NCBI GenBank assembly: GCA_963691705.1 | Contig: OY829537.1 | Span: 53,420,304 to 53,484,303, forward strand | Length of the DNA stretch: 64,000 nt | Direction: 5' to 3' | Source: Viola odorata | Taxonomy: Eukaryota > Streptophyta > Magnoliopsida > Malpighiales > Violaceae | In this document: positions 19,333 to 63,945 of the stretch, one piece after another | Layout of the letters: each line of letters begins with the position of its first letter | How positions within the stretch are numbered: the stretch's first letter is position 1 | The notes under the pieces: model-generated | What the model was told of the DNA's origin: nothing | The model's input: the letters and a program-made list of their open reading frames with translations, nothing else | The model's database searches: none | Made by a program: the position numbers and the translations under genes

Positions 19333-20421
19333 CTATCACCTGCGTCTTCCTCCTTATAAGAAAGTTGGCCTTCTTTACTCCCATCAATTTTATCCATCAT
19401 GGCAGAGGTATAATCGGCAATCTTAGCTGGATCGAAAGAATTACTCTTATGGTAATCTGCAAAACTAGAGTTAAAGGCTTGCATGGCCTTCTTCTTCCAC
19501 CACTCTATCTTTAACGGAACCCTGGCAAGCTCCTTGTCTCGAGCTAGTATTTCTTCATAAAGAAGAAAGTTCTTCTTCCTTTCTGTCACTAACTCTACCT
19601 TCAAAACCTCGACTTTTGCTTTCCCTTTGGATTTCTCTCTACTCAACTCCTTTTGCGTTTCGTTTTGGAGTTTCGTTATCAATTTCACATGGCTTAACGC
19701 CCGATCAAGCTGCGCCTTTTGAGCACACATTGCGTTGGAAAAATCCTACAATTGGCTTTCGAGAATCATTCATAATGTGCACATATCGAGCCTTTTGAGA
19801 AAGTTGTAGAAACTTTTCTCTTTCTTTAGAAAGACTCATCATCTTGCCTATCAAAGATGGCATTAATTCATCTCCCGAGAAAGGGTTTCACACCCCTGTG
19901 GCGTGAAGATCATCGACTCTAAGCCCTATCAAATCTAGTCGGTAGGATGAAACTCCCTTAGGGCCTTGAGAAGAGAGATTGACCGTTAAGGCCGGGGAAG
20001 AAGATTTATCACCTGCTCTAGTAACAGAAGTGAAAAACAATCGTTGAGGGGCCCTGGGCAACGGCTCAGGAGGTGGACTCACATGAGAAGTCATTGTCGC
20101 CATGCCTGGAATGCAACAAGAAATATGAGAGTCAGGGGTGTTAATCGGTGGAAGCGAATCTGCTTTTAACGGAACTTCAGTGATAGTTGGAGGAGCGACA
20201 GTTGTCGCCTCTGCAACCTTGGTCGATTGAGAAGAACTTGCCACAGTAGAAATGTCAACCCTCGTGGTAGGAACCTCGCCAGTACTTCGAAGAGAAATCC
20301 CGGTAGCCTGTCCATCTTTCTCTACTCTAAGTTTCTTCCGTTGGACTGTGGAGGTGTGACGAAGGTCTGTTTCAGTATCCATATCCTCGCTATCGCTGTC
20401 AATTATCCTAGTTATGGGTAG
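19330..20421 (-). pseudogene. Element B antisense gene beta, C-terminal part
   Basis: On the minus strand this continues the gene interrupted by element F; its 5' part is at 48771-49778. It shows an acidic start (SDSEDMDTETD), a Ser/Thr/Pro-rich middle, then a coiled-coil C-terminus with an E-W-W-K-K-K landmark at about 19490. D's beta has the same order with WWKKK and a following DPAQVADY motif (here DPAKIADY). Frames change near 19890 and 19740. The end at 19330 is the deletion point that fuses it to pol. Confidence 0.75.
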
Positions 20422-20693
20422 TGATACGAGCCCAAGGGCCCATACCACACACGGGCCAAGGACAAGGAGCAAAGCCATGATAGCCTTGTTCTTGAAGGCG
20501 CTTAGAACCGAGGAAAGCAGCACGAAGCCCGCAAGCCTTTGGAGGCTTTGTGTCTACGCCAACGACTCGACTCACAGCCTCACGCCCGAGTCTGAGTCCC
20601 ATCGGAAGCCCAAAGCCACACCCAGCGCTTTGGCCACGGCTCGCAGCCTCACGCCCGAGCCCGCGCTCTATCGCAAGCCCAAGTGATACGATC
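20422..20693 (+). repeat. Element F 5' LTR, first part
   Basis: TGATACGAGCCCAAGGGCCC and what follows matches the start of the F 3' LTR at 47704 with few differences. It ends at CCAAG, where element E's LTR begins. Confidence 0.9.
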
Positions 20694-20800: not shown

Positions 20801-21370
20801 TGATAACAATCCACCTAAGGAAAAGGGTATTTCCGTCTATTGCCCTGAACTGAAAGAAGAAATCACTATTCCCACCACCGCGGTGGATAGAGGGTCATCG
20901 CCTACCCAGAGGCTGACGCCATGAGGGCAAAATAGTGCTCAGGAATCTCCCCAAACAAACCTTCTACATGGCTCGAGGAGCTGTCTCATTCTGAGGAATA
21001 CCACGCGTCAGGGGGACAACTCAGTCGCTACCCTATCGTGGTAACATTTATCCCATGGCTATCGCCACGGTAACATATCCTCCGAGGGGCGAACCACGAT
21101 CCCTAATGTTAGGGATAGCTCTCCAGCTATTCCAAACGCGGAAATGCTCAATTCTTCTATATATACACCTCCCCCTCAAAGGAGGCAGGTAAGCATACTC
21201 TAACTGGCCCAAGCTCTGCCAAATTCAGTACACATACTGACTTATGCATCGGAGTGTTTCAGCCGGAGACCCCCCTCCGGCGCATTGCAGGTACCGCGGA
21301 CCGTCGTGAGCATTGATCTGAGAGGAACCGTTCCGCCATACATCCTTCGACAGAAAACAAAATCTTATCA
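20801..21370 (+). repeat. Element D 5' LTR
   Basis: TGATAACAAT to CTTATCA, 570 bp, with a TATA-type box TATATATA at 21158-21165. Confidence 0.95.
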
Positions 21371-21455: not shown

Positions 21456-23327
21456 ATGGCCTCAGAGTCAGATCCGGCGCTGTCCCAAACTTCCAACATC
21501 TCATACAACACCCGCAGACGACTGTTTGCCTTCGCTACCTCTGATGCCTCCACCCCAGTGCAGGACGTCACTGCGGGAGAATCAAATTTTCCTCCTGGGC
21601 CAAGTTAGGAAGAAATTACATTCCAGATTTGCTCTCTCTTTTCTCATGTGACAGGAACCAGTCGTCTTACCCCCCAAGCAGGGAGATGCATGATGGGTGA
21701 AGCAGACAACCCTTTCGCAAATTCAATAGCAGCTCTCCAAGCTCAATTGGATCAGTTGACAGAGATGGCTGCTGGATTTACTCCTCATGCCTCGAGACCT
21801 GGTGTGTCCTCCCAAGTAGTTTTCACTCCGTCCATTGTCAATGAACAACCATTATCGCCTCGACAATCCAGAGGACTCCCGTCCTCCTTACCATTTTCAT
21901 TGGCCCCCATCAGCGTCCTGCCGTTCGCGCGTGGACCTGCGGAACATTCTGGACAATACAGGGGAGGAATCTCTATCCCTGAAATAGCTCGCCGATGTGA
22001 TGAGTACAGAGAACATTGGGATGATCGACGGGGGGATATATTGAAAGAGCCATCTCCTAGATACAGTGAAAGATCTAGCAGCAGAGGTCGACGAGCTCGA
22101 ACTCCAAGAAGCCACAGCCGATCTCCCAGGCGGCATCAGGAATATGACCCTCAGAATCGCAGATATGACGTTGAAATTCCACACCCGCACCAGCCTCGTG
22201 GAGTCCCTGATATTAACGTTGGCCATCCGTTCAGTTACCGTGTCAGGCACCATAGAGTTCACCGACATGTGAAACTCCCAGCAGAATCATATGATGGCAC
22301 GAAAGATCCCATTTCTCACCTCAATAAGGTGAAAGATTTTGTGCAATTCCAAACGCGCAGTGACGCAGCATTGTGTCAGATCTTCGTAATGACGCTGTCA
22401 GGCGTGGCACGTCTCTGGTTCGAGGGACTCCCGGCCGGATCTATTGATAATTTTTCTCAACTGGAAGAAAAATTTAAAAGTCGGTTTAGCACGGCTATTC
22501 CTATCAGGAAGTCAGCAGCTACACTGTTCGATATCCATCGAAGACCGCAGGAATCATTGAACGACTTTTTAGGTCGATTTGATCTTGAAATGTCCCTAAC
22601 GCCAGGGGTCACTATTGATTTTGCGGTTGAGGCCCTAAAACGCAACTGCCGATACGGAAAATTGAGAGACACGCTAACGGTGGACCCACCGATGACCCTG
22701 GATGCGCTGAGGCTGAAAGCGCATAATTATGCGAGAATGGAAGAGGAGGAAAATAGAGAATGGATCCGAGACATGCCAGCGGACCCATATGTGGCCCCTA
22801 ATGCCCCGCATAACAGCGCCCCTGACGTACGACCCACTGATGATCAGGGGCAACGAAAGGAGCATACTGTCAAGACCTCTAACCGGCAGGGACCTGGAGG
22901 GTCCCCCTCTCGAAACCAAGCGGATCCGCCAAAAGGCCGGATATATGATCTTGACCTTCCATCTCTTATACTCCCACGGGCTGAAATCCTAGCGATAGTC
23001 CAACAGCGAAATCTGCCTATTAGATATCCGGCTCCTGTGAAGCCAGGAATGATCATGGGAGGAAGGGAAAACGCATATTGCAAGTTCCACAAGGTCAAGG
23101 GACATTCGACAGATGTATGCAGAGAACTGAAATTGGCCATAGAGCGATTGGTCGATGAGGGCTACCTAGGAGAATTTGCCACCAAGGCAAGAGAAGAGGC
23201 CAGGAACAACCCAACGGGAATGAAACTGATCAGAGGCAAGCGCCTTCACGCGCCATGGGGGCTAACGCAATCCCCCTTGGACAAAATAGAGAAGCTCTCG
23301 TTGTCCATAGCGATCAGATGCCTATGA
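21456..23327 (+). pseudogene. Element D gag (Tat-type), one early stop
   Basis: ATG at 21456. A TAG at 21606-21608 is the only stop before 23327. The N-terminal part is Ser/Thr-rich, an Arg/Ser-rich segment runs at about 22060-22140, and the capsid core begins SYDGTKDPISHLNKVKDF (about 22290). A CHHC zinc knuckle, CKFHKVKGHSTDVC (C-x2-H-x4-H-x4-C), is at about 23080-23121. Near 23220 the frame shifts relative to B, where gag runs on into protease without a break. Gag forms the particle and binds the RNA. Confidence 0.9.
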
Positions 23328-23953
23328 TTAATATTATTGCCGGGGGAACACCCTACTTCAAGGAGGCCATACCACAAACGCCCAGTCCTGGGGAAAAGCG
23401 CAAGCGAGAAAGCGCCCAGGTAAAAATTGAGGCGATAAACGCCTTAGATAGAATGATATTGTCCTTCTCAGAAGAAGACGAAAAGGGTATTGTTTTCCCA
23501 CACAACGACGCGTTGGTAGTCACACCTGTCATAGGAAGTCACGGGGTGAGAAGAACCCTTGTTTACAACGGGAGCGCAGTAAATCTATTTTCGCTGGAAG
23601 CATATAACTTGATGAAACGCCCTGATGGGGAGCTAGCGCCATGCGCGAGGCCAATTATCGGGATTGATGGCGTACCGATACCGGTAGCCGGAATAACATC
23701 CTTGCCAGTATACTTCCGAGAAGACACATCCAAGCGCTCAGAAGAGCTATTATTCCTGGTTGTAGACCTAACATTACCATACAACGCTATACTGGGATAA
23801 CCGTTCCTCAATCGTTTTAGGGTAGCGATATCCCAAAAACACCTACGAATGAAATACCCCTCGTGGGACGGAGTGGTCTCAATCAAAGAAGACCAGAAAC
23901 TGGCAGCCGAATGTTATTTGCTCATGACTTAGAGGAGTTGCGACCGCTACGTT
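23255..23953 (+). pseudogene. Element D protease, active-site Asp lost
   Basis: Begins after the gag frameshift with a linker shared with B (MINIIAGGTPY, then SFSEEDEKG). The retropepsin triad is YNGS at about 23567-23578, where B has DNGS, so the Asp is Tyr. Stops occur at 23798 (TAA where B has an Arg codon) and at about 23931 (TAG in place of a Gln codon). Confidence 0.85.
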
Positions 23954-23956
23954 TGC

Positions 23957-25339
23957 ATGGCAAACGACCCTTTTGACGATAAAGAAGAAAAACGCACTCA
24001 GCCGTTAGATCAGATGATGTCAATACCTATCGCTGAGGACAATGAGGCGAATCTCTTGGTCAGTGAGAAACTGAGCCCTGAAGAGAGCGTGCAGCTAACC
24101 CGACTATTAAGAAAATACAAGGGAGAATTCGCATGGAAACCAGCGGACATGCCTGGAATCTCGCGAGAGGTCGTAGAGCATCGTCTAAACGTCAGCCCTG
24201 AGGCCAAACCTATTCAGCAGAAACGACGCGCCTTTTCATCAGAAAAGGTGGCGCCTATCGAGAAGGAGTTACTAAAGCTCATGGACGCGGGGTTCATTCG
24301 AGAAGTTCAGTACCCAACTTGGCTGGCTAACCCGGTGCTAGTTCCAAAGCCTAACGGAGATTGGCGCATGTGCATTGATTTCACTAACCTAAATAATGCT
24401 TGTCCCAAAGATTGCTATCCCCTTCCTCAAATTGACCAGCTGGTCGACCAAACCACGGGGTACGCTTATTTAAGCTCTCTGGATTCCAACTCCGGATATC
24501 ACCAAATCCCAATGGCTGCAGAAGACGAAGAGAAAACTGCCTTCATCACCCCTAGGGCCACATATTGCTACACCGCAATGCCGTTTGGGCTGAAGAATGT
24601 CGGGGCAACGTTTCAGCACATGGCAAATAAGATTTTCGAAAAATAAATAGGGAAAAACGTAGAGGCCTACGTGGACGATATCCTGATTAAAAGTCGAAGC
24701 TTCGGAGACCATCTGGCCGATTTGGAAGAAGTTTTCAATGTAATGAAAAAATACAAAATGAAGCTGAACCCACGAAAGTGCATGTTCGCGTTCCAAACAG
24801 GAAAATTCTTGGGCTACGTGGTTAGCCGAAAGGGTATTCAGCCCAACCCTTCAAAGGTAAAGGCCATTCAGGACATGATATCCCCGCGAACCGTCAAGGA
24901 AATACAAAAGCTCACTGGCCGCATCATCGCGTTAGGACGGTTTATATCTAAGCAAGGAGAGAGATGCCTCCCCTTTTTCAAGGTCATTCGAAACAAGGCC
25001 CCATTCGGATGGACAGAGGAATGTGAAAACGCGTTCGCAGGACTGAAAGCCTACTTGTCATCCGATCTAGTGCTAACGAGGCCTGAGTTCGGTGATGAGC
25101 TATACCTATACCTGGGAGTAGCTGACGAAGTAGTCAGTGCCATCCTCGTACGAAGTGAAGGGCATGTACATCGCCCTGTATTTTTCGTGAGTCACATATT
25201 AAAAGACGGGGAGCTACGATACGCCCGCATCGAGAAGATAGCGCTTGCTCTAATACAGGCAACGCGAAAGATGGACCGATATTTCCAAGCCCACCCCGTT
25301 ACCGTTCTAACTGATCAGTCGCTGAGAATTTTTTTTTAG
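23957..25339 (+). pseudogene. Element D reverse transcriptase and RNase H
   Basis: All three RT catalytic Asps are visible: SSLDSNSGY (motif A, about 24475-24502) and YVDD (about 24669). The primer-grip and thumb regions follow, then gypsy RNase H from LPFFKVI (24967) with LYLYLGVADE and LTDQSL. A TAA at 24643-24645 replaces a Gln codon. A T-run at about 25329-25338 shifts the frame beside a stop. Both breaks leave otherwise well conserved coding sequence. Confidence 0.9.
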
Positions 25340-25361
25340 AAAGCCTGAGTCCTCAGGGAGA

Positions 25362-27308
25362 ATGTTGATTTGGGCAATCGAGCTCGAACAATACGGGCTG
25401 CAATACAAAGCCAGGCCGGCAATAAAAGCCCAGGCGTTAGCTGACTTCATAGCGGAGTGCACATTCACCAAGGAGGTGTTGGAAAAACTGTCAGAGGAAG
25501 AATCAGAACACTCATGCCTACCGTTCCCGGAAACGCACGCAGACTCATGGGTTATCAACGTGGACGACGCAAAAAATCAAGAGCTAGCAGGAGCAGGCGT
25601 TTTCCTGGTGGGGCCAAACGGCATAGAAATGCGATATGCCATTAGAATCCTGCAGCCGTTATCCAACAACGCCGCTGAATATGAAGCGCTGCTGGCAGGA
25701 CTCAGAATTGGAAACACCTTCTCCGTTGAAGCCTCTACCGAGACGGAAGAGCAATACGGCTTACGCCTAAAGATTCGAGGAGACTCTAAATTGATAATGG
25801 ATCAAGTCCTAGGAAACTCCCAAGCCCGAGAACCCGTCATGATTCAATACTTGGCCAAAGTAAAGCGTGAGCTGTCGGAGATGCAGAAAAAAGGCACACG
25901 GGTCATCTTCGAGCACATCCCCAGAGAAAGTAACGAAGAGGCTGATAGCCTCGCCAAGATGGCAGCCAACGCAGACGCCTCCATACCCAGCGAGGTACAT
26001 TACAAGGAACTATCCATACCCTCTTTCATGGAGGAGCAAGCATCGTTGTGTGTGGAAGAAATAGAAAGTGACTGGAGGATCCTAGTGGTAGAGTATCTAA
26101 AGCATGATAGGCTACCAGATGAAATTGCGGAAAGGAGGAAAATCCTAAAATGGGCGGCGCGATGTACATATTACAATGGAGAGTTAATACGGAGGTGCTT
26201 CTCCCACCCAGCTGCTAAATGCATAACGGAACAAGAAGGCCTGCATGTGCTAAGAGAAATTCACGAAGGGATATGCGGCATGCACATCGCAAGCGATACT
26301 CTAGCAGCTCAAGTCTTTCGGTCGGGATTCTATTGGCCCACCATACGAAGAGATTGCCATAACTTCGTGAAAACCTGTCAGAAATGTCAGGAATACGCTA
26401 AGATCCCTCAAAAACCGGCCACGCCAATCTCAGAAATAATTGCTCCATGCCCGTTTGCCAAATGGGGCATTGACATATTAGGCCCGTTTCCAATGGCTAG
26501 ATCTCAGCTAAAATTCGTGGTCGTGGCAGTAGACTACTTCACAAAATGGGCCGAAGCCGAGGCGTTAGCCACCATCACCATTGAAAAAATTTGGCATTTT
26601 TTCAAACACCAAGTCATTATGCGATTCGGGGTTCCGCGCATACTGATTAGCGATAATGGAGCACAGTTCACAAGTCAATTCTTCAGGGATCAGTGTGCGG
26701 AATTCCAGATCGAACAAAGGTTCTCTTCCGTAGCACACCCCCAAACCAATGGCCAAGCAGAAGTAACCAACCGCAGCATCCTTAGTGGCATCAAAAGAAA
26801 CCTGGAAGGTTCCAAAAAGAAATGGCCAGACGAATTGCCATACGTACTATGGGCCTATCACATGACTGTTAAGACCAGCACTGGAGAGACCCCGTTTGCG
26901 TTAGCATTCGGAACCGAAGCTGTCACACCGGTTGAGATCGGAATGATGAGCCTTAGGGTGGCTCATTTCAGAGAAGAAAATAACGAGGAAAGGTTACGTG
27001 CTAACCTTGACGCCCTACCAGAAACACATGAGGAAACATTGCTGAAAACTCTACACTACAAAAGAAAAATGGCGCAATACCACAGCCGGCAAGTGAGAGA
27101 GCGATTGCTCAAAGTTGGAGACTTAGTGCTCAGAGATAGACGAGCGGCAGGGCAACGCATGGGCAAACTTAGTCCAAACTGGGACGGACCGTATCGCGTC
27201 ACCCGTATTGTGGGAAGAGGAGCTTACCACTTGGAAACGCTCGATGGAATGCCCCTACAGAACTCGTGGAATATAGCCCGGCTGAAGCTATACCACACCA
27301 GGAACTAG
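25362..27308 (+). CDS. Element D second RNase H and integrase, open
   Basis: A 648-codon open frame. It begins in the end of gypsy RNase H and the connection, then shows an archaeal-type RNase H (VINVDDAKNQELAG at about 25548, NAAEYEALLAGL, GDSKLIMDQV, ESNEEADSLAK), the dual RNase H layout typical of Tat/Ogre elements. Integrase follows with its zinc finger (CQKCQEYAK at about 26380) and the DDE residues in GIDILGPF, ISDNGAQF and QAEVTNR. The C-terminal part has the GDLVLR and NWDGPYRV motifs. Integrase looks intact, but it depends on a broken upstream polyprotein. Confidence 0.9.
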   Translation: MLIWAIELEQYGLQYKARPAIKAQALADFIAECTFTKEVLEKLSEEESEHSCLPFPETHADSWVINVDDAKNQELAGAGVFLVGPNGIEMRYAIRILQPLSNNAAEYEALLAGLRIGNTFSVEASTETEEQYGLRLKIRGDSKLIMDQVLGNSQAREPVMIQYLAKVKRELSEMQKKGTRVIFEHIPRESNEEADSLAKMAANADASIPSEVHYKELSIPSFMEEQASLCVEEIESDWRILVVEYLKHDRLPDEIAERRKILKWAARCTYYNGELIRRCFSHPAAKCITEQEGLHVLREIHEGICGMHIASDTLAAQVFRSGFYWPTIRRDCHNFVKTCQKCQEYAKIPQKPATPISEIIAPCPFAKWGIDILGPFPMARSQLKFVVVAVDYFTKWAEAEALATITIEKIWHFFKHQVIMRFGVPRILISDNGAQFTSQFFRDQCAEFQIEQRFSSVAHPQTNGQAEVTNRSILSGIKRNLEGSKKKWPDELPYVLWAYHMTVKTSTGETPFALAFGTEAVTPVEIGMMSLRVAHFREENNEERLRANLDALPETHEETLLKTLHYKRKMAQYHSRQVRERLLKVGDLVLRDRRAAGQRMGKLSPNWDGPYRVTRIVGRGAYHLETLDGMPLQNSWNIARLKLYHTRN

Positions 27309-27404: not shown

Positions 27405-27818
27405 GTGAAAATCATATCCTTGTGATGGCTGGTCCTGATCAGACAGCTCACTAAGACGAGGCACACCCTGGCATGGCTAAGCATTGGGAGTGAGAATCCT
27501 ATCCTTATGGTAACCGTGCTCACATAGACGGCCCATTAAGACGAGGCACGACCTCAAACGCTCCCGGGAGTGAAAATCCTATCCTTGTGGCAACCGTGCT
27601 CATATAGATGGCCCATTAAGATGAGGCACGATCCCAAGGAGAGACCAACTCCGTCCTGGAAGTGAAAATCCTATCCTTGTGGCAACCGTGCTCACATAGA
27701 CGGCCCATTGAGACGAGGCACGTTCCAGGAACGCGAGGTTTCAATGCTTAGGAGTGAAAATCCTATCCTTGCGATGGCTGGTCCTGATCAGACAGCTCGC
27801 TAAGATGAGGCACTCCAT
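27405..27818 (+). repeat. Five imperfect tandem units after integrase
   Basis: Units of about 80-92 bp start near 27405, 27491, 27570, 27661 and 27753. Each contains a version of AGTGAAAATCCTATCCTTGTG and a block ending in AGACGAGGCAC. The first and last share a TGGTCCTGATCAGACAGCTC core, and the middle three share CAACCGTGCTCACATAGACGG (with changes), giving an a-b-b-b-a order. The position in the 3' untranslated region fits known Tat/Ogre tandem subrepeats. Confidence 0.9.
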
Positions 27819-28282: not shown

Positions 28283-30515
28283 CTAAGGAGCGGGTGGTGC
28301 GTTGACTCCTCCTTGCTGCCTCGATTTCCATAAATAGAAGCTGTCATCAGTAATAGTGGAGACCCTCCTATCAAAATACGCAGCCAACTCATCAATACGG
28401 AGTTTTTCTATCCCATGATGATGCATCAACGCCTCCGACATGAGCCCTCCGCCTTCCCTCAAGTACCATTGATTCTTCTCAACGTTTAAAGCCAGATCGG
28501 CAGTCAGGTCGGCATTCCTCTGCCTCTCCTGGCGCAACTCATTCTCCTCACGAGAAAGGCGTTCGGTCAGAATCCGTTTCTCCTCCTCCAAAATATGCTT
28601 GACAGCCTCCAGCTCTTGCTTGACAGTCGTCACTTCCTGACGGGCAGACTCTGTTTCTTGATTGGCAATGTTAAGCGCGTCCACAAAACTCTGACGCTCA
28701 TTCTGCAACCTGGTCACCTCCCCCTGCCCGTTTGCGGCAATCCTAGCATTCTCCTCATCCAGGTAATGGAGGTGACAGAAAAAAGAAAGCGCTTGTGAGC
28801 GAAGAAAGTTTATACGCTCCTGCTCACTCCTAGCCGCAAAGGCATCCCTCTCCCTTGGAAGAGACATAATCTCGGCTACCAGGTAAGAGGTAGACGCGAG
28901 AATGGAATCATGATCAGTCCCGGCAGGAAATTGCAGAATGTTGTCCCTGAAGGAACGCAAACCAATATGATGAGTGGGCATGAGGGGAGGATTATAAGTA
29001 GAAGCACCGGCTATCAAAGCAGGGGCTGGGCCACCTCTCGCGATACTGGGAGGAGACATCGGAACAAAAAACAGAGCGGCAGGAGAAGAGGGTCGACTGC
29101 CGGAACCTCCCGCGTTGGGCACTAGGGACCCATCTCCACCAAGTGCTTCAAGGTTAAGGGCACTTGAGTTATAGCTTGTCGCGGTGGAGGAATCACCTAA
29201 AATGTGAGGATTACCACCGAAATCAATACCCTGCGATTGCTCGGCAGGAAGGCCACCACCCTCAGAGACGTTCAAAGGAGGATTCGCAGCAGAAGAGGTA
29301 GGGTTGTGCTGAAGCTCATAGCGGGCCTTCTTCTGACGCTCTCGAAGGACCTCGGCAATAGACATATCACCCGCAGAGGTTGACTGAGCAGAAACAGTGG
29401 AAGCCTCCTAGAAAACGCAGTGCAAGCATACCTGGGTGACTGTGGAAACCAGAGGTATCGCGGTAGGAATGGGATCAACTGTCGCCTCCGAAGAAACAAC
29501 GGTGTGAAGGGAAACGGGTTGCGTGGCGCGTGTTTTACTCACTCTCTTCTTCCTTGCGACAGGGGTGCGAGGAGGTGGCGATGAGGTAGTACCCATAGCG
29601 GTAGCAATGCCTTCCTCTTCCGCAGCGGCAGCAGCAGCAGCAGCCCTGGTGGCAGCGGCAGCTTTCTTCCTTTGTTCCTGTTTCCTCTTCCTCCGGAAAT
29701 ACTCGGGCTCCCAACCAGGCGGAGGCACTGCACAGTTAAAGAAACGTTAGCGTTAGTACCTCTTGGCAGCACAAAAGGAAAAAGGGCAAACGCTCACCCT
29801 TTTTGCACGGTTCCATTTCCAGACCATTAGCCACTTTTCGGGCATCAACACTGAAATCTAGTTGAAGTAGCGTCTTCAACCAGCCATCTTCTGGATCAGA
29901 AAGGGGTTTCCGATGGCCCCAAGCTCCATCTTTAATTTTCTTATTGAAGCCGGCCCTCCATAACGGCTCGGGCAAATCAATAATAAAAAATTCCTCTTTC
30001 CCATGAGGAACAGAAGACTCGATACCCATAAGCTTCCAGGTAAAGGGCTTCAATGAGCCATCTTCATAATGAGGGGATATTGATATCACCCCCTTACGAG
30101 AATACAACTGGAAAATGTCATGAAGCAGGGCCAGAGTGGGAGACTCGATTCCCTTGAAACGGCACAGTGCGGCAAAGGCACTGACAACGCAAATCGCGTT
30201 AGGGCTCAATTGAGCCGGAGCCAAATCAGAATCAGCCAATAACAACTCAACAAGCGGGTCAAGAGGAAGACAAAACCCATGGTCAAATAACTTAGCATAT
30301 AATATTCTACTGTTACCGGGCAGAACGCTGTTCAGACGAAGTGATTCGGAAGCAGCGCGCACGAGATATTCTCTGGGAAATCGCGCATTACACGCGGCAA
30401 GCCTACGATTAACTAAAGGCAGAGTATAGAGAGAAGTAGGGGTAATGCTGATTTTTTCTTCTCCGACGGACCCTTGAGGATCCTCCTCATCGGAAGATCT
30501 CTTAGTCTTAGCCAT
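28283..30515 (-). pseudogene. Antisense gene alpha of element D (gypsy-type transposon domain, coiled coil)
   Basis: ATG at 30515 (MAKTKRSSDEED). Exon 1 runs to 29798. A 70-nt intron follows (29797-29728; donor AGG/GTGAGC, branch site TACTAAC, acceptor TGTGCAG), and splicing keeps the frame. Exon 2 runs to the stop at 28283. Exon 1 resembles the Pfam family called 'putative gypsy type transposon' (LPLDPLVELLL..LAPAQLSPNA). Exon 2 starts with a basic Arg/Lys block and Ala runs, then a Ser/Pro/Gly-rich part, then a coiled coil (about 28800-28480) and a conserved end. A single TAG at 29408-29410 is the only break. Function unknown; nuclear entry is a guess from the basic block. Confidence 0.75.
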
Positions 30516-30680
30516 AACCAATAAAGGAGAAGTGACGAGCAAAGAAAGGGTGTGTACCTTCGCAAAGAGAACACCAGGAGTCTCAGACCAAAAAGAAGAG
30601 AGCGACGCGAGTTGTTTGTCCAGAAAGCAGCAGCGTGCGAGAGAGGAGATTAAAAAAGAAAAAGGAGGAAGGAAAAACAT

Positions 30681-30689
30681 TATATATAA
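30681..30689 (-). promoter_or_regulatory. TATA box of antisense gene alpha
   Basis: The minus strand reads GTTATATATAATG, about 165 bases before the ATG. A CCAAT box in reverse (CTGATTGG) lies about 25 bases further upstream (near 30705-30712). Confidence 0.6.
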
Positions 30690-31145
30690 CACGGAAAGGG
30701 CGTGACCAATCAGCGGGGGACGCATGGCAAAGCAGCGCGTCGGGAAATAAGGCTGACGAAATGCTTCGGTGATTCACGTCTCCCTAGGAGACGCTTGCTT
30801 CAAACGCCTCTTCATAGAAAGACGCGTGTCCTTTTCCATCATTGCTTTTCAGATCGCATTAAATGGAGGGACTGCAGCATTTAAATGGCCTAAAAAGCAG
30901 CGCTGGCTTAGCCAAACGGCACGGCAACACAAAGAAGATAATGAAGAGATGGCGGTAGCATCACAATGATTCACGCGAATGCGATAAAGGTCATATAGCG
31001 TCAGCATTATTACAAGAGGAATAATGACAAATGGTTTTTGGAAAAAATAATAATAAAAGCAGACAACAATAAGAATAACAAGGGAGGGTCCAGAAACCCG
31101 TTGTGACACTTCTCCAAAAGCAAAGCGGCGCCCCTATCTTTGGCG

Positions 31146-33260
31146 TTAGCCCTTTTCCCCTTCTGAGACAGAAGAACCAATCCCACCTTTGCTAACCTCA
31201 TCCATCACGGCAGAAATATAGTCAGCAACCTGGGCAGGGTCAGAAGAGTTACCCTTGAAACGGGTTGCAAATCCAGAAGTAAAGACTTCCAGGATTTTCT
31301 TCTTCCACCATTCCTCCTTTAATGATGTCCTGGCGGATTCCTCGTCTCGAGAAGACATCTCTTCGCGAAGAAGGAGATTTTTCTTCCTCTCCAACGCTAA
31401 CTCTGCCTCCAGAACCTCCACCTTTGCTTTCCCGACAGACCTCTCTCTGTTTAATTCCTTTTACGACTCATCGCAAAGACGCGTTAGCAACCCCATTTGC
31501 TCCACCGCTTTCTCAAGATGCACTTGCTTAACGCACAGCGCGTTGGAAAAATTGCGTGATTCGCTGTCATGAATCTCGAACAGATAGTTCAGGTGACGGA
31601 AGAAATCTAGAGAATCATTCATCATATGGCGAAGACGAGCCGGTGGAGGAAGCTGAAGAAACTCTTCCTTCTCCTTCTAGGAGCCCAGCATCTCTCCTAT
31701 CAAAGGTGCAGTAAACTCATCTCTGGAAAAAGGTTGGGGAACCCCGACAGCACGAAGACCATCAAAGCAGAATCCCTTCAGGCCCATAGGATAGGAGGGG
31801 GTCTCGGTAGGACTGCCATAAGAAAGATTGATTGACGGAGCGGGAGAGGAATTCCCGGAAAAAAATTCCGTGATAGGAGAAAAGAACAGTTGAGGAAGGA
31901 CTTTAGGCGGTAGCCCAGCAGTCAAATCCGTAGTAGAAGGCGTAGCAACTACGTCAGGAATGCAATGAGAAATTGGAGAATCGTGAGCGTCAACTGTAGG
32001 AAGAGGACACGTTGTCGAGGGAACCTTCACCTCGGCAGAACACGTAGCAGCCAACGCCTCAGTAACTCCCACCGGTTGGGAGACACTCGTCCCAACCAAA
32101 ACGGCAGAGATAGGAGCAGTCGTTGCATCCACAGAAGAAGCCCCGGTGGCCTGCTCACCCGTGGTAAATTGAAGTTTTTTTCGACGCAAGGAAGAGGCAT
32201 GGCAAAGGTCCGACTCGACATCCACATCCTCATCATCACTAGCAATCACCGTCCTTGCGGCTGGGCTGGAGTCCGTCCTCTTGCGACGCTCCGGGAGCTA
32301 ATTTTCCACAAACCGAGAAACTCGGCCAGAGCTAACGGGCCTTCGCCCTCCCCGGGCAACGGTCTTGGTTCTTCTCCTCGGGGGATGAGCGCTACCCTGA
32401 TTAGAGCCATCAGCAGGGGGGAAGCTGGTAAAGTTTGAAGTGGCGTAACATTCAAAGGAGCGCCAGCGTCACCTGGGAATTAACCGTTAGCCTCCTATAA
32501 CAAAAGAAGCGCGCAAAGACAAAGGCAAAGAAAATACGAAAAGAGGCAGACTCATCCATAGCACACTCCTCCAGAGGTTTGAACAAGGCAAAGCTACGGA
32601 TGCGATAGTGAGCACCTTCATCTAACAGAGCGTTAGCTTGCTACAACTCAGTCCTGGTCAATATCGAGGGATTCGACCAAATGGGGCCTATCAGCTCCTG
32701 GTTGAAATTAATACGCCACAAACGTGACGGTAGCTCCAGAACAAAGAAACTGTTTTTCAAATCAGCTACACCCTTCTTAAACCGTGAAAACGCTGCCAGA
32801 ACGACTGCACGAGTGCGTCATTCCACCGAGGAGTAATTTCAATTAAACAATTATGGCAATTCATACTAAAGAATTTGCGAAATAAATTGAGAGATGGGGT
32901 AGAAATGTTCTTCAACTCGCAAGCGCGAAGAAAAGCATAAACCGCACACCAGGAGGAGGGAGTTATCTGGGCAGGATTAAGGTTATACTCCCGCAGCAGC
33001 GTTAGTATCGATTCATGAACAGGAAAGCGGAAACTGTAAAGGAACATCTTAAAGTAAAAAAGCCTACTGTAACCCCACGCCGGATTATGGAGCCGCATAT
33101 CACTTCCAGGGATAAAGGGCTCATACCCGGGAGGAAAAGTAATACCGTGTTCCTCCAGCTCGGCTTTCAGAACCACATCGCATGTAAAAATACTAGGTGA
33201 TTGCGCGACCTCTGGATCCATGGGTTTCCAGATAACCTGGCGAGGTCTATTTCTAGCCAT
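31146..33260 (-). pseudogene. Antisense gene beta of element D, paralogue of alpha, broken
   Basis: ATG at 33260 (MARNRPRQV). The N-terminal domain follows the alpha plan: a FRFPVHESILTLL..LNPAQITPSS core at about 33030-32960, then LELPSRLWR (about 32735). The frame shifts near 32780, a TAG lies near 32640, and the intron donor at the alpha-equivalent position (about 32560) seems altered. After it come a linker, an acidic stretch (SDDEDVDVESD at about 32240), a Ser/Thr/Pro-rich part (open 32249-31677) and a coiled coil with an E-W-W-K-K-K landmark (about 31310). Element B has the same gene, split by F. Function unknown. Confidence 0.7.
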
Positions 33261-33479
33261 AACAAACCAGCAAAAAGGAAATCGGAGAAGGATTGAATTG
33301 GTACCTTGAAAGGGGAAAGTTACAGAGGAGTCGGCGGACGACGACGGACGGCCGGTAAGATATTCGGGGAAGAAGACGAAGGAAGATAAGAGAAAAAATT
33401 CGAAGCAAGGGCAAAAGTTCTGAAAAAAGAAAAATGGCCCCTCTTAAAGGATTAAAACGCCACCGCATTAATTAAGCCA

Positions 33480-33521
33480 CCAATCGCGCGGAGACGCGTG
33501 TAAAAAGAGGTTGGCCACGTG
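33480..33521 (-). promoter_or_regulatory. Conserved upstream block of gene beta (G-box, CCAAT)
   Basis: A CACGTG G-box (33516-33521) and a CCAAT (33480-33484, in reverse on the gene strand) lie upstream of beta. Element B keeps the same G-box (50027-50032) and CCAAT in the same order, although the surrounding bases have diverged. Their role in transcription is inferred. Confidence 0.45.
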
Positions 33522-33752
33522 GAAGCACATTAAAGAAATTAGAAAAAGAGAAGTTATTCAGCGTGATTCCCCAAAAGGGCGACAGAGTTGACCCAGTCAA
33601 GATAACTGCGAAGCAACTGCCTCGGCCAAGCCAACCGCTTACGTTGGCTATCGCCAAGGACCAGTAGGCTAACGGAAATAATGACAAAAGAAAAAGGTAG
33701 AAAATATCATCTTATTTATAAAATGCCAATAGGCATATACAACACAGAGGCG

Positions 33753-34208
33753 TTAATCCTCATCAGCCCAATCCATGTCATAACAGTACTCGTAGTCCTC
33801 CGAAGGCGACGGGAATCCACTGTTGTAGGAAAAGAAATGTTCGACAGGTTTGGGCACAAGCTTTGTCGCATGAGCTACCGTCTTGTCATAACGGGCACGA
33901 GAACTCTCCCCAACGGTAGAAGCTGCTAGCTTTAAATCAGTGCCGCGAGAAAGAGCCTTATTCTCAAAAGAAGGAGAAGGAGGGGCAGACGGTGACACCT
34001 CATCATTTTTTGGTAGCGTCGCGTAGTGGGGCACAAAGCCGGTAAAGAAGGACTCAAAGGTCTGCTTCTTCACTTTCACTATTTTCTTGCGACCCTGGCG
34101 TCTAGCAGGACATTTTATAGGTCTCCACGGAGGAGTCGAAGGAGGATTATCCGAATCCGGTGAAGTCGGAGGTGTTGGCAAGGAATCACGCCCGCAAAAA
34201 TCTGTCAT
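33753..34208 (-). CDS. Antisense gene gamma of element D (small acidic protein)
   Basis: Open for 151 codons from the ATG at 34208. The N-terminus reads DSLPTPPTSPDSD, identical in element B's copy and similar to Cdc4/FBW7-type phosphodegrons (Leu-Pro-Thr-Pro-Pro-x-Ser). A Lys/Arg-rich block follows (about 34120-34070), a Ser/Pro-rich middle, and a conserved acidic aromatic end (here DMDWADED; in B a Trp-Leu-Asp-Glu-Asp end). No known fold is recognised. A TATA-like box lies about 70 bases upstream. Being open in both D and B is unusual among the broken genes around it. Confidence 0.6.
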   Translation of the reverse strand: MTDFCGRDSLPTPPTSPDSDNPPSTPPWRPIKCPARRQGRKKIVKVKKQTFESFFTGFVPHYATLPKNDEVSPSAPPSPSFENKALSRGTDLKLAASTVGESSRARYDKTVAHATKLVPKPVEHFFSYNSGFPSPSEDYEYCYDMDWADED

Positions 34209-34275
34209 GCCGACCTACAAGAAAGCAAAGAGAAGGAAAAGATGAAGATGAATAGGGGAAGGGAAAGCATTTCCC

Positions 34276-34283
34276 TTAAATAA
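34276..34283 (-). promoter_or_regulatory. TATA-like box of gene gamma
   Basis: The minus strand reads GGTTATTTAAGGG, 68 bases before the ATG. Element B has GCTATTTAATGG at 50786-50797, a similar distance from its ATG. Confidence 0.5.
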
Positions 34284-34530
34284 CCCAGGAAGAGCTCCGA
34301 TCCTCGCACAGATCCTGAAAAAATCAATTAAGATGTCTGGGAAAAATAACCGCAATGGCAGAAGCTGATCCGGCACAAATATACCTGCTCGTTAAATGCG
34401 CCAACCAAAAGGCACCAAATAACTACCCAATCACTCACCCCTGAAACGGCGGCTTTGGAAACAGTTGAGTCAAAGCATTCATTGCTCATTCATGGAACGC
34501 AACCGCGGAAAGGGTATGTACTGAAGAAGG

Positions 34531-34550
34531 CTCATTTTCAGTTGGGCTTG
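34531..34550 (-). promoter_or_regulatory. Repeated 20-base motif, internal copy in D
   Basis: CTCATTTTCAGTTGGGCTTG lies about 320 bases upstream of gamma's ATG. Copies also lie at 35255-35274 (before delta and abutting the 3' LTR), 51059-51078 and 51778-51797. The CAGTTG core fits a plant MYB site. Confidence 0.6.
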
Positions 34551-34707
34551 CCACCAACACATTTAGCCAATGCAGCAAGAAATAAACAAAATGACTGGAA
34601 AAAACAAAACAAAAGCAACCATTTATTTATGGCCTGAGCAGCCTCAGCGTTCAGATATACACATAAAAGCATAAGAGAAAGGCAACAAGAGGAAACAAAG
34701 GCAGCCG

Positions 34708-35091
34708 TCAGGCATTGGATCCTGCATCATCCTCCCCTGGTACGACCGGGATATCCCTCAGCGCGTCAGCAATGGAGGTCAGCTCAGCGGAGTAGGCCCT
34801 CATCCCCTTTAAGCAGCAGACCAGCAAATCCTTCCGCTGCTGCAGCATCGAGGCAACCACGTCAAGGTGGGCAGTAGTAGTGGCCAGCTTCGCCAAGCTC
34901 TCCAAAGGACGGAAGTCCTCCAAAGATATTCCCAGTTGTTTGGACAAAATAGGGGTAAGTATCCCCTACAACTCCAGGACATCCTCCGAGGTCTTGGTGA
35001 TCATCCTCTCCAGGAAGCCGATGTCACCTTCAGTAAGGTTCTTCAAGGTCAAAGTTTTGGAGATCAGAAAATTTCAGGTCAGTTCATCCAT
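34708..35091 (-). pseudogene. Antisense gene delta of element D (small helical protein)
   Basis: ATG at 35091; 127 codons. Two stops break it: TGA at codon 6 and TAG after VLEL (about 34971). The protein looks wholly helical with heptad-like leucines and a QRKDLLVCCLKGMRAYS segment matching element B's copy. That copy is open. It is the first gene in from the 3' LTR and has a TATA box about 60 bases upstream. No family recognised. Confidence 0.6.
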
Positions 35092-35150
35092 GGCGAAATA
35101 TGGAAAAGAAAGGGACGTGCAAGTGTGAGGAAACTTGCGCAGAAGAAACT

Positions 35151-35161
35151 TCAATTTATAA
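35151..35161 (-). promoter_or_regulatory. TATA box of gene delta
   Basis: The minus strand reads TTATAAATTGA. The same core stands at 51654-51664 upstream of delta in element B. Confidence 0.6.
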
Positions 35162-35254: not shown

Positions 35255-35274
35255 CTCATTTTCAGTTGGGCTTA
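35255..35274 (-). promoter_or_regulatory. Repeated 20-base motif abutting D's 3' LTR
   Basis: CTCATTTTCAGTTGGGCTTA ends at the base before the LTR. There is no purine tract where one is expected, so this sequence may have a double role: priming of plus-strand DNA or promoter of delta. Confidence 0.5.
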
Positions 35275-35845
35275 TGATAACAATCCACCTAAGGAAAAGG
35301 GTATTTCCGTCTATTGCCCTGAACTGAAAGAAGAAATCACTATTCCCACCGCCGCGGTGGATAGAGGGCCATCGCCTACCCCAGAGACTGACGCCATGAG
35401 GGCAAAACAGTGCTCAGGAGTCTCCCCAAACAAACCTTCTACATGGCTCGAGGAGCTGTCTCATTCTGAGGAATACCACGCGTCAGGGGGACAACTCAGT
35501 CGCTACCCTATCGTGGTAACATTTATCCCATGGCTATCGCCACGGTAACATATCCTCCGAGGGGCGAACCACGATCCCTAACGTTAGGGATAGCTCTCTA
35601 GCTATTCCAAACGCGGAAATGCTCAATTCTTCTATATATACACCTCCCCCTCAAAGGAGGCAGGTAAGCATACTCTAACTGGCCCAAGCTCTGCCAAATT
35701 TAGTACACATACTGACTTAAGCATCGGAGTGTTTCCGCCGGAGACCCCCCTCCGGCGCATTGCAGGTACCGCGGACCATCGTGAGCATTGATCTGAGAGG
35801 AACCGTTCCGCCATACATCCTTCGGCAGAAAACAAAATCTTATCA
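35275..35845 (+). repeat. Element D 3' LTR
   Basis: TGATAACAAT to CTTATCA, 571 bp, followed by GTGAG. About 13 differences from the 5' LTR by eye. Confidence 0.95.
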
Positions 35846-40218: not shown

Positions 40219-40220
40219 AG

Positions 40221-48770: not shown

Positions 48771-49778
48771 GTAGGCCCAAATTTACTCCTCTACCCCATA
48801 CTGGTAACCAATTGTCAAGAAAATGAGAGGCTTGAGCAGAAATACCCCGCCCTCTTCCGGCGACTGTCTTAGTTCTCCTATTCTTTAATGGGATATTCTG
48901 ACGACTGAAGCCCCTAGATGGCGGAGAAGCTGGCAGCGTTTGGAGCAGCACCACATTCAAGGGAGTGTTATTCCCTCCGGATGATTGACCCTCAGTTTTT
49001 TCTGCCAATAAACTATGTTAGAACAACAAGCAAATCAAAGCGATAACGCGAAAAGAGAAAAACTCAACCGTAACTCTCTCTTCCAGATGCCTGTACAAAG
49101 CGAACTCCCGAATATGGAAGGACGTATCTATCTCTAACAGGGCGTTAGCCTGAGCCAACTCGTCTCTAGACAACACTACTGGTTTTTCCCAAACACCACT
49201 AGTAATCTCTCGATTAAAACCTCTGCGCCACAAACGGGAAGGCAGTTCGATAATGAAGAAGCCGCTCTTCCAACCGGTCACAGTCTCCTCAAAGCCCCGA
49301 AACTTCCGCCAGAACGACTGCACGAACGCGTCATCCCACTAGGGGCAATATCGACTAAACAGTTACGACACTTTAAGCTAAAGAATTTAAAGAATAAATC
49401 GACAGACGTAGTAAAGATGCCCTTCATCTCGCAAGCACAAAGAAAGGCATAAATTCCACACAGGAAGAAGGATATATCTGAGCTGGATTAATATCATATC
49501 GGCGCAATAATTTCTCTACAGAAGTATGAAGTGGGAAACGAAAGCCATAAAGGAACATCTTAAAGTAAACCATTCTATAGTTTCCCTATAATGGATCATG
49601 AAGCCACATGCTATCCTCAGGAACGATAACGGAATAACCAGGGGGAAAAGTGATACGATGACTCTCTAATTCAGCCTTCAAAATCGTTTCACAAGAAAAA
49701 ATACTGGGTGTTTTATCGACTTCTGGATCTAAAGACCTCTGAAAACCCCTATGAGCTCTAGTCTTACGTATAATGAAT
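48771..49778 (-). pseudogene. Element B antisense gene beta, N-terminal part
   Basis: The minus-strand continuation of 19330-20421 across element F. It has the same order as D's beta: SLDPEVDKTPSIFSC, PPGYSVIVPED, the FRFPLHTSVEKLLRRY..INPAQI core (about 49560-49480) and IELPSRLWRRGF (about 49230). At the start codon D has ATG, but B has no ATG (the minus strand there reads ATTATA). The middle has frame changes near 49450-49320. After the LEERVT stretch a likely intron follows (about 49065-49000, acceptor TATTGGCAG) at the position equivalent to alpha's intron. Confidence 0.65.
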
Positions 49779-50262
49779 CAACAAAAATAAAATCTGAAGA
49801 AGATGGAGTGAAATACCTTGAAAGAAAAGAATTACAGGTGAGCTAGTGGAGGACAGCGGAAGAGCAAGAAATTCTTCGTGATAAAGCAGAAGGAAAAGGA
49901 AAAAGGAAATTTGAAATGAGGGCGAAAAGAGTAAGAAATAGAAAGTAGTCTCCTCTTAAAGGACTAAGTGCCACCACATTAATTGAGCAGCCAATCATAT
50001 GAAGACGCGTGTAGAAAGGAAGCGGCCACGTGGAATCATATTAAAGGAGAATTTAAGACCAAGCAGTTACTCGTCACATCTTTTCGAGGGGCGGTTACTT
50101 TTGACCGAGTCAGACGGTTACAGAACAGTTACTTCAAAATAACTAACGCGTTCGCGTTAGGTATTAAAGAAATTGGGAAGAAAATGCAAAAACGGTAACA
50201 AAGGATAATTGCAAATAATTCATAAAGCCATATGGCATCTACAAGGCGTATAACGCTTAAAG

Positions 50263-50721
50263 TCAGTCCTCATCAAGCCAGTAAGAAGGCCAGTAGAACT
50301 CATCTCCATCCGAAGACAGTAGCCCATCATTGACAAATAGGAAAGGCTCGTCAACCCTTCTCTCTTGACCTAGCTTTGACGGAGGGTCCTCCGAAGGACT
50401 TTTCCCCTTTGTAAGAGTAGTGCATGAATACCCCTTGACGACAGAGGCCGTAACTTCAGAACTGATATCACTAGTAGAATCTCTTTCCAAGAAATGACTA
50501 ATGTAAGGAAATAGTTCATCACCCTTCCGTACGGAAGGGATGTAGAAGTCAGAAGACGTGCTGACAGTCTCAGAGATCTTCTTCTTCGACCTCTTACGAT
50601 TCTTACGATGGGAGAACTGCCTTTTCAGGCATGGGGGAGAAGGATCGTCAGAATCTGGAGAAGTTGGAGGAGTTGGTAGGGAGTCACGTTCGGCAGCATC
50701 TATGGAATATGAGTCAGTCAT
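50263..50721 (-). CDS. Element B antisense gene gamma
   Basis: ATG at 50721; 152 codons, open. It has the same N-terminal DSLPTPPTSPDSD as in D, a strongly basic block (KNRKRSKKK at about 50600), a Ser-rich middle and an acidic aromatic end (PSYWLDED). The middle has diverged far from D's while both ends are kept, which suggests that two short motifs are what matters. TATA-like box at 50786-50797. Confidence 0.6.
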   Translation of the reverse strand: MTDSYSIDAAERDSLPTPPTSPDSDDPSPPCLKRQFSHRKNRKRSKKKISETVSTSSDFYIPSVRKGDELFPYISHFLERDSTSDISSEVTASVVKGYSCTTLTKGKSPSEDPPSKLGQERRVDEPFLFVNDGLLSSDGDEFYWPSYWLDED

Positions 50722-51058
50722 GAAATGGCAAGCAATTTCAACAGTAAAATGAAATGAAGATGAATAGAAAAAAGAAAGGAAAACCCCATTAAATAGCCAT
50801 AGGGAAGGGACTTTCCTGCCTTTTGGCACTAGGATAATTAATGCATTTCGAGAAGAATTATCATAATTACATAATCCAATCTTACGTGATCGCACCTGCT
50901 AGAAAGTCACACTAGTCAAGAGGCGCCGAAAAACCACCCAATCATTTACCATTGGGAGTGCAGCATAAAGTCAAATACCAAAAACGGTTGAGTAAAACAT
51001 TTATTGCCAAGTGGCGGATAAGGAACACGAATATTGAGAGAATACGTCCCGCAGAGGA

Positions 51059-51078
51059 CTCATTTTCAGTTGGGCTTG
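51059..51078 (-). promoter_or_regulatory. Repeated 20-base motif, internal copy in B
   Basis: CTCATTTTCAGTTGGGCTTG, identical to D's internal copy (34531-34550) and at a similar distance (about 340 bases) from gamma's ATG. Confidence 0.6.
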
Positions 51079-51171: not shown

Positions 51172-51597
51172 CTAAGTGGCCCAAGCGCCTAAGCGCGTAC
51201 AGCAAAAGCATAACAAGAAAAAACAAAGAGATGGCGGTCGGCGATCAAGCATGGGAATCTCCTTTACGGCATCCGCCACCAAAGTCAGTTCGGAGGAGGA
51301 AACCCTCATGCCCTTCAAGCAGCATCCCAGCATATCCTTCCTTTGTTGCAGCATGGTCATGACCACCTCGATACGGGAAACAGCAACAGCCAGCTTAGAC
51401 ACATTCTCCAGAGGACTAAAATCCTCCATTGAAGCTGCACCTTGTCTGGACAAAAGAGGGTTCATCATCCCTTGAAGCTCCAGAATATCCTCAGAGGTTT
51501 TGGTTAGCATATTTTCCACAAAGCCCACATCAGCCTGGTTGAGGTTTTTTAGAGTGTGAGCCTTTGAGATCAAGAAGTTCTTTGTCAGATCATCCAT
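51172..51597 (-). CDS. Element B antisense gene delta
   Basis: ATG at 51597; 141 codons, open. Helical throughout (MDDLTKNFLISKAHTLKNLN, QRKDMLGCCLKGM). It matches D's delta up to the EIPM/DIPV stretch (about 51240), after which the ends differ, so B's tail may be frameshifted. TATA box at 51654-51664. Confidence 0.6.
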   Translation of the reverse strand: MDDLTKNFLISKAHTLKNLNQADVGFVENMLTKTSEDILELQGMMNPLLSRQGAASMEDFSPLENVSKLAVAVSRIEVVMTMLQQRKDMLGCCLKGMRVSSSELTLVADAVKEIPMLDRRPPSLCFFLLCFCCTRLGAWAT

Positions 51598-51777: not shown

Positions 51778-51797
51778 CTCATTTTCGGTTGGGCTTG
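51778..51797 (-). promoter_or_regulatory. Repeated 20-base motif abutting B's 3' LTR
   Basis: CTCATTTTCGGTTGGGCTTG (one difference) ends at the base before TGATAACT of the LTR, as in element D. Confidence 0.55.
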
Positions 51798-63373: not shown

Positions 63374-63945
63374 TATGAAGGAGTTGTCGCATCGTCTCTC
63401 TCCTACTCCGGGACCCTATCCTTATGGAAATCCTCATCGGTTACATTTTGGGCCTTCTCCAAGTAATACTGAGAAAGGTCGTTAACTCGGAGGGCTTTTG
63501 TCTAGTAAAATTTCATGAAAGCATCCGTCATAAGTCCCGCCCCCTCCCGTATATACCAACGACACTTCTCGGCAGAAAGATTAAGCTCCGCAGACAACTC
63601 CACATTTTTACGCCTTTCCGCCTCTAGCTCGGCGTTAAGGGTAATGTTTCTAGCCTCTTCTTCGGAAAGACGTGTATTTAGAGCGACCCCTTTCTGTTTC
63701 TAATTATCCAGCGCGAGCCTGTCATCCTCTGTTTCCTTCCTGGCAGTTGCAACAACGTCTAATAGTCCTTGACGCTCATTCGTCAATTTGTCTATTTCTT
63801 CTTGTTTCTTTGCTGTTATCTTCGCGTTATCCTCATCCCAATAATGAAGATTGCAAAATGAAGAAAATAGGCGAGAGTGGATGAAGTTTATACGCTCCTG
63901 ATGATTCTTGGCCAAAAACATATCTCTTTCTCCTCGATGTGACAT
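63374..63945 (-). pseudogene. Third copy of antisense gene alpha, C-terminal part
   Basis: The minus strand from 63945 shows ERDMFLAKNHQERINFIHSR and a coiled coil that lines up with D's alpha (SEQERINFLRSQ at about 28820-28785). The end matches as well (GAGLMTDAF against GGGLMSEAL). Stops occur at 63698-63700, 63516-63518 and near 63413. The gene continues beyond the window. It shows that the antisense module exists in at least three Tat-like copies in this region. Confidence 0.7.

Follow-up and report, generated by a model that had tools for sequence, protein, structure and literature searches.

A putative antisense gene cassette with two Transposase_28 paralogs in a Tat-clade retrotransposon of Viola odorata

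The 64,000 nucleotides of Viola odorata DNA analysed here (contig OY829537.1, positions 53,420,304 to 53,484,303; hereafter the window) are, according to their repeat map, a nest of plant long terminal repeat (LTR) retrotransposons. One of these, element D, carries between its integrase and its 3′ LTR four coding regions, alpha, beta, gamma and delta, all on the minus strand, opposite to gag and pol. Their order and position, as given in a preliminary description of this DNA, are borne out by the list of open reading frames (ORFs). Judging from similarity and codon-level comparisons, the antisense cassette is real, and at least alpha, beta and delta have been under selection; most likely it is a regulatory accessory cassette, with a mechanism that can be proposed only tentatively. 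Element D would be a Retand-type member of the Tat clade whose Transposase_28 (TRP28) proteins regulate transcription of their own family, an explanation that we advance tentatively, as quite possible though not yet probable.

The cassette comprises two duplicated genes with a Transposase_28 domain and a coiled coil (alpha and beta) and two small genes (gamma and delta), each probably under its own promoter. The alpha and beta proteins would form pairs by means of their coiled coils. Having entered the nucleus, they would bind to the DNA of the element family they come from and, in trans, boost or safeguard its transcription. Delta, which is predicted to be helical, and gamma, rich in phospho-sites and ending in an acidic tail, might act as cofactors.

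The genes of the cassette and their copies

The coding regions of element D, of the older element B, and of a third copy are as follows.

28283..29727, minus strand: alpha exon 2, with a low-complexity stretch, a coiled coil and an in-frame stop at 29408-29410
29728..29797, minus strand: predicted alpha intron, 70 nt, phase 1 (GTGAGC...TACTAAC...TGTGCAG)
29798..30515, minus strand: alpha exon 1, Transposase_28 domain (PF04195, 29.3 bits)
31146..33260, minus strand: beta, with a Transposase_28 exon (PF04195, 43.0 bits), predicted intron, Ser/Thr-rich middle and coiled coil; broken in D
about 32473-32564, minus strand: predicted beta intron, weak donor
33753..34208, minus strand: gamma, 151 amino acids, Ser/Pro-rich, with a conserved RDSLPTPPTSPDSD block and an acidic tail; open in D
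34708..35091, minus strand: delta, about 127 amino acids, predicted helical (low confidence); two stops in D
19386..20424, minus strand: C half of beta in element B, parted from the N half by nested insertions
49021..49777, minus strand: N half of beta in element B
50263..50739, minus strand: gamma of element B, open
51172..51597, minus strand: delta of element B, open
63424..63990, minus strand: third alpha, C-terminal part only (41.5% identity over 195 amino acids, E 2e-42)

Both Transposase_28 matches exceed the Pfam gathering cutoff of 26.2 bits. The N domains of alpha and beta are 29.5% identical over 139 amino acids (E 8e-20), and their coiled-coil halves 22% over 217 amino acids (E 2e-9, possibly inflated with the low-complexity filter and composition correction switched off). 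These similarities indicate that alpha and beta are paralogs, a relation that goes beyond the preliminary description.

The N domain and the second half of alpha lie in different frames, and the 70-nt predicted intron (29797 to 29728) links them in phase 1. It is one of 70 candidate introns of 60-200 nt, of which at least 12, among those listed, read through to the known stop, and both of its splice sites agree well with the consensus. At the intron position the outside relatives P0001 and P0002 depart from the alignment with alpha and continue with G-K, as from a GGTAAG-type donor. In beta the acceptor side is in phase 1 in both D and B, but the beta intron is less certain than that of alpha on account of its donor, a weak one in D and one without GT in B. 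An intron is thus predicted in alpha and perhaps in beta. Lying antisense to the genomic RNA, such an intron would not be spliced out when the element is copied; it would stay in the sense genomic RNA and can therefore survive retrotransposition. A second alpha intron, of 24 nt around the stop at 29408, was rejected as too short. Some 45-50 nt before the start codons of alpha and beta stands AAGGTA (minus strand, about 30560 and 33302-33312, respectively), the beta-side site, CTTTCAAGGTA, being identical in B and D; it resembles a splice donor, with no clear acceptor.

Outside relatives of alpha exon 1 were confirmed for two of 865 candidates, P0001 and P0002 (47 and 49% identical), and a profile search confirmed five of 6433, these two among them. 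By the residues they have in common in the alignment, as judged by eye without a tree, P0001-P0004 are alpha-like and P0005 is beta-like, so that the division into alpha and beta types seems to extend beyond this window. In viral contigs no relative was confirmed for alpha exon 1 (12 pattern matches), P0002 (6) or the integrase ORF (2), nor in prokaryote genomes for any of 255 pattern matches to alignment A4. Pfam gave no match at E up to 10 for both gamma copies and the delta of B, and none at E up to 1 for the open piece of the delta of D.

A similarity search confirmed that element B has beta, gamma and delta in the same order as D. The preliminary description had the genes held together in diverged copies, which applies to beta, gamma and delta in D and B, the two examinable elements, but not to alpha, which is absent from B. 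The third alpha that it named exists as a C-terminal fragment, the rest of its element being lost or beyond the window, so that all four genes stand together in one of the three copies in the window, D. Even there, alpha is not one frame and has one in-frame stop, beta has a frameshift and several stops, and delta two internal stops; gamma is open. In B, gamma and delta are open, and beta has stops and lies in two distant halves because other elements inserted inside it. Similarity of B to the pol of D stops near 19121 and its beta starts at 19386; the end of pol and alpha are therefore jointly missing from B.

Constraint between copies

Element D was compared with B and, for the C-terminal part of alpha, with the third copy; two intergenic stretches served as controls. 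The ratio of nonsynonymous to synonymous substitution rates (dN/dS) was 0.29 for the alpha C part, 0.20 for delta, 0.48 for gamma, and 0.19, 0.19, 0.44, 0.19 and 0.37 for five pieces of beta. As references, gag gave 0.12 and reverse transcriptase (RT) 0.07, the synonymous rate (dS) of the RNase H piece being saturated; the intergenic controls gave 1.36 and 0.80 in the named frame. For all eight gene pieces the bootstrap interval of pN/pS, the corresponding ratio of proportions of differences, excludes 1. Delta (0.38), the two N pieces of beta (0.37 and 0.42), its coiled coil (0.41), its piece c1 (0.54) and the alpha C part (0.55) all lie below the control minimum of 0.61. Differences were in excess at third codon positions in gag (p 8e-26), RT (1e-14), delta (7e-05), the beta N pieces (6e-4 and 0.011) and the alpha C part (0.0097), and not in the intergenic controls (0.15 and 0.27).

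Codon-level constraint thus appears clear for delta, the N part of beta and the C part of alpha. Ratios near 1 in all four genes, the outcome that the preliminary description had named as telling against the cassette, were not what the named frames gave (0.19-0.48); delta, beta N and alpha C are clear of noise, whereas gamma and the middle of beta are not. Low reverse-frame pN/pS values suggested sense-strand coding in the cassette region, a candidate that was rejected as a mirror effect, such values being found over gag (r0 0.37) and RT (r1 0.30) as well.

Gamma calls for separate treatment. Its RDSLPTPPTSPDSD block has 14 identical residues in D and B, with nine synonymous changes and none that alters an amino acid, and the adjoining codon has one amino-acid change; the variable middle is possibly misaligned. 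As far as this comparison indicates, constraint in gamma is confined to that one 14-residue block, on which its coding status hangs, the frame being open in both copies. Alpha, beta and delta go beyond chance and are protein genes under constraint; for gamma a coding role is supported in part. The block (34181 and 50679 downwards, minus strand) includes LPTPPTSP, which we take to resemble the c-Myc phosphodegron.

Upstream regions and repeated motifs

Signs of separate promoters, and a repeated motif near the 3′ LTR, were found at these positions.

30680..30688, minus strand: TATA-like box of alpha (TATATATAA), single copy with none to compare
34276..34282, minus strand: TATA-like TATTTAA upstream of gamma, also in B
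35150..35160, minus strand: TATA-like box of delta (TATAAATTGAA), identical in B
30820..30829, minus strand: ACACGCGTCT upstream of alpha in D
33492..33501, minus strand: ACACGCGTCT upstream of beta in D
50003..50012, minus strand: ACACGCGTCT upstream of beta in B
33513..33524, minus strand: TTCCACGTGGCC upstream of beta, identical in B
34531..34550, plus strand: internal copy of the 20-bp motif CTCATTTTCAGTTGGGCTTG in D
35255..35274, plus strand: CTCATTTTCAGTTGGGCTTG with one mismatch, abutting the 3′ LTR of D
51059..51078, plus strand: internal copy of CTCATTTTCAGTTGGGCTTG in B
51778..51797, plus strand: CTCATTTTCAGTTGGGCTTG with one mismatch in B, right before TGATAAC

Identical runs of 9 or more bases in the D/B alignment were compared with 2000 shuffles. 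The 5′ region of delta has 39 bases in such runs against 2.1 expected, TATAAATTGAA being among them, and the region 5′ of gamma and 3′ of delta has 54 against 6.3 (0/2000 shuffles in both cases); part of this excess is due to the 20-bp motif CTCATTTTCAGTTGGGCTTG. The motif ACACGCGTCT has three copies in the 64 kb and none in 100 shuffles, each copy upstream of a TRP28 gene, the two beta sites being homologous copies of one another. Separate promoters for the antisense genes are indicated by these sequence signs, which are not proof of transcription. Other candidates were set aside. At beta, TCCTTTAAGAGG is weak, since 11/100 shuffles contained it at least twice when one mismatch was permitted; for the 12-mer TTCCACGTGGCC, which we take to be G-box-like, the figure was 3/100; GATTGG (CCAAT-like), with 41 occurrences in the window on both strands, has no evidence value.

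Allowing up to one mismatch, CTCATTTTCAGTTGGGCTTG occurs four times, and in none of 100 shuffles. The inner copies, 724 and 719 bp upstream of the outer ones, make the motif flank delta in D and B. The LTR of B starts with TGATAAC by comparison with D; self-alignment puts its start at 51806. The position of CTCATTTTCAGTTGGGCTTG at the 3′ LTR border suggests the priming region of the plus strand, despite a sequence not rich in purines; the inner copy might serve as another primer or belong to a promoter. A single narrow literature search found no paper on a central polypurine tract in plant retrotransposons. A bolder proposal, and an unlikely one, is that some Retand-type elements have a virus-like accessory regulon: four antisense genes, in part spliced and each with a promoter of its own, among them the duplicated TRP28 pair as a heterodimeric DNA-binding regulator. 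A further primer-like site for the plus strand, 720 bp before the 3′ LTR, would in that case give central-primer DNA synthesis around delta.

Placement of element D

The remaining parts of element D are as follows.

20801..21370, plus strand: 5′ LTR, TGATAAC...CTTATCA, target site duplication GTGAG at 20796-20800
21648..23327, plus strand: gag (PF03732, E 3.4e-10)
23159..27308, plus strand: pol with RT, RNase H, a second (RVT_3-type) RNase H and integrase; several broken frames
27567..27771, no strand: tandem repeat between pol and alpha, 92-bp unit, 2.2 copies
35275..35845, plus strand: 3′ LTR, target site duplication GTGAG at 35846-35850

The LTRs, of about 570 bp with TG...CA ends, are 97.7% identical to each other and enclose an internal region of 13,904 bp, of which 7,966 bp lie between pol and the 3′ LTR. 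The Pfam scan gave the domain order RT, RNase H, RVT_3, H2C2 and rve in pol, the second RNase H matching PF13456 (RVT_3, E 3.2e-12) besides PF17919/PF17917. We infer that this is the archaeal-type RNase H that marks the Tat clade of Ty3/gypsy elements. An RNase H of this type between RNase H and integrase defines the Ogre or Retand subclade (PMC6317226), and an antisense TRP28 ORF is listed as characteristic of Retand (PMC11963269); element D has both, the second RNase H in that very position and the TRP28 ORFs between pol and the 3′ LTR.

Ogre elements have an extra ORF upstream of gag. None appears there in the ORF list, the 5′ LTR of D being separated from the start of gag at 21648 by 277 bp, and the plant mobile domain PF10536, which is not universal in Ogre, had no match among the pieces of D scanned with Pfam. 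Element D is therefore a Tat-clade Ty3/gypsy element better placed in Retand than in Ogre; of the label Tat/Ogre-like given to it before, the first half is kept on account of the second RNase H, and the second half fits less well, given the antisense TRP28 genes, the lack of an ORF before gag and the lack of a PF10536 match in the pieces scanned. The LTR length falls within the 315-1,194 bp of surveyed Retand elements and the internal region above their 7,380-12,869 bp, a range drawn from 63 clusters and not a defining cutoff.

Comparison with known systems

Retand elements were already known to carry antisense Transposase_28 genes, which makes the core of the cassette a known one, less novel than the preliminary description implied. 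Such ORFs were reported in 61 of 63 Retand clusters, their product being predicted to bind DNA (PMC11963269). By another count, only 23% of Retand elements have Transposase_28, and 57% of those of Ogre have the plant mobile domain (PMC6317226). The Retand ORFs resemble those of D in lying antisense between pol and the 3′ LTR, in their Transposase_28 domain, and in the tandem repeat of that region; compared with the elements as the survey's text describes them, D differs in its two TRP28 paralogs, its predicted intron and its two extra small genes (PMC11963269). Its region between pol and the 3′ LTR (7,966 bp) also exceeds the survey maximum of 6,566 bp (6,556 in the survey's table), as its internal region does that of 12,869 bp (PMC11963269). 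The kind of cassette is known, and that of D seems to be a richer version of it.

That survey applied an ORF cutoff of 600 bp and kept shorter ORFs only if they encoded TRP28 (PMC11963269, 2025), and genes of the size of gamma and delta would therefore have been left out. The words "intron" and "TATA" do not occur in the main text of PMC11963269, nor "intron" in that of PMC7264820, which urges the examination of spliced antisense transcripts; the available parts of these two papers and of PMC12786077 yielded no report of introns or splicing in such antisense genes. This suggests that ORF surveys using a 600-bp cutoff and ignoring splicing can miss some accessory genes. Antisense TRP28 genes are present in most of the recently active Retand elements surveyed (PMC11963269). 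Element D offers clear handles on their function: it has a pair of TRP28 paralogs, a putative intron, blocks of conserved sequence 5′ of its genes, and small genes besides.

Other likenesses are more distant. Gene23 of maize Grande is an antisense accessory gene between pol and the 3′ LTR with its own promoter, as predicted from sequence in D, and has a nuclear product; unlike D, Grande is described with one such gene, and the two are likened by description, not by sequence (PMC7264820). Ogre shares with D the Tat clade, the second RNase H between RNase H and integrase, and a long internal region, and differs in the plant mobile domain of more than half of its elements (PMC6317226), which was not found in the pieces of D scanned. 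HBZ of human T-cell leukemia virus type 1 (HTLV-1) is likewise an antisense accessory gene of a retroelement (PMC11963269), but its antisense promoter lies in the 3′ LTR (PMC7264820), and it is likened without sequence comparison. VANC of VANDAL transposons, which belong to another transposon class, is likened to the TRP28 proteins not by sequence but by possible logic only, that of an element protein acting on the noncoding DNA of its own family (PMC5735166).

Weighing the explanations

The view of the four genes as an accessory system, held in the preliminary description with conjectured roles in silencing escape, RNA export or control of host factors, is supported in part: beta, gamma and delta stand together in both examinable elements, alpha is not in all copies, and the ratios do not set gamma apart from noise. 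Several results weigh against transcriptional regulation by a protein-coding cassette. Beta and delta of D are broken, and alpha is wanting in B. What speaks for the alpha intron is its splice consensus, the reading frame and the ends of two proteins, and at least 12 candidate introns keep the frame open. The region 5′ of beta and 3′ of gamma has a modest excess of identical runs (34 bases against 12.3, p 0.034; longest run p 0.18). With the intergenic controls reaching a pN/pS of 0.61 in other frames, gamma (0.70) and the middle of beta (0.65) are not separable from noise; three of the five other frames of the gamma stretch give 0.74-0.77, and reverse frame r1 of the beta middle 0.63. The codon-position test shows trends for the beta coiled coil (p 0.067), c1 (0.095) and the middle (0.11), and gamma has no third-position excess over its whole length (p 0.88). 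Structure models are poor for alpha exon 1 and delta (mean predicted local distance difference test scores, pLDDT, of 37.8 and 51.6), and solved structures gave chance-level matches alone (E 0.65 and above). For delta, no relative was found among proteins at E 0.01 or better (14 candidates), and none of 45 pattern matches was confirmed in viral contigs.

The TRP28 proteins could instead serve integration, by binding the complementary DNA or pre-integration complex and aiding nuclear import or target choice rather than transcription. An integration role for antisense ORFs is discussed along with the nuclear gene23 product of Grande (PMC7264820), but separate promoters would be an unusual route for a component of the particle, and we give this role a modest chance of being right. 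Counter-silencing is rather unlikely: TRP28 would, like VANC, bind the noncoding DNA of the element at short motifs or tandem repeats, causing loss of methylation. A tandem repeat does lie beside the D cassette, about half of the Retand elements in the survey have tandem arrays (PMC11963269), and the targets of VANC often form tandem repeats (PMC5735166); the repeat of D, however, is short, with 2.2 copies.

If the antisense transcripts acted as RNA, pairing with the genomic RNA and tuning silencing, the ORFs would be incidental. The conserved noncoding 5′ blocks and the lack of codon periodicity in gamma fit this, and regulation by double-stranded RNA has been raised (PMC7264820); the codon-position bias in delta, beta N and alpha C, and the Transposase_28 domain retained in two paralogs and in outside relatives, make it distinctly unlikely. 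That the genes are non-functional passengers, captured or nested sequence in decay, as the stops in beta and delta of D, the loss of alpha from B and the near-neutral overall pattern of gamma might suggest, is very improbable, and already unlikely for alpha, beta and delta, given the constraint in delta, beta N and alpha C at near-saturated synonymous divergence, the relatives of alpha and beta elsewhere, and TRP28 in nearly all Retand clusters (PMC11963269).

Surroundings in the window

The repeat map places D in an LTR of another element, that one in an LTR of a further one, and all of them inside the older element B. Element B in turn lies within an LTR of a still older element (2365-3068, 6914-7174 and 52274-52669), making the nest a deep one. 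In the element hosting D (36671-40332, minus strand; LTRs of about 940 bp), ORFs of 622 and 264 amino acids gave no Pfam match at E up to 10; the longer one resembles, by eye, the gag-protease remnant of a non-autonomous gypsy element. At 56000-62600 on the minus strand lies an AT-rich sequence (26-34% GC up to 62000) that is endogenous pararetrovirus-like, with protease, RT and RNase H matches and with PF24925 and PF24496, two families that we presume to be linked to caulimovirids.

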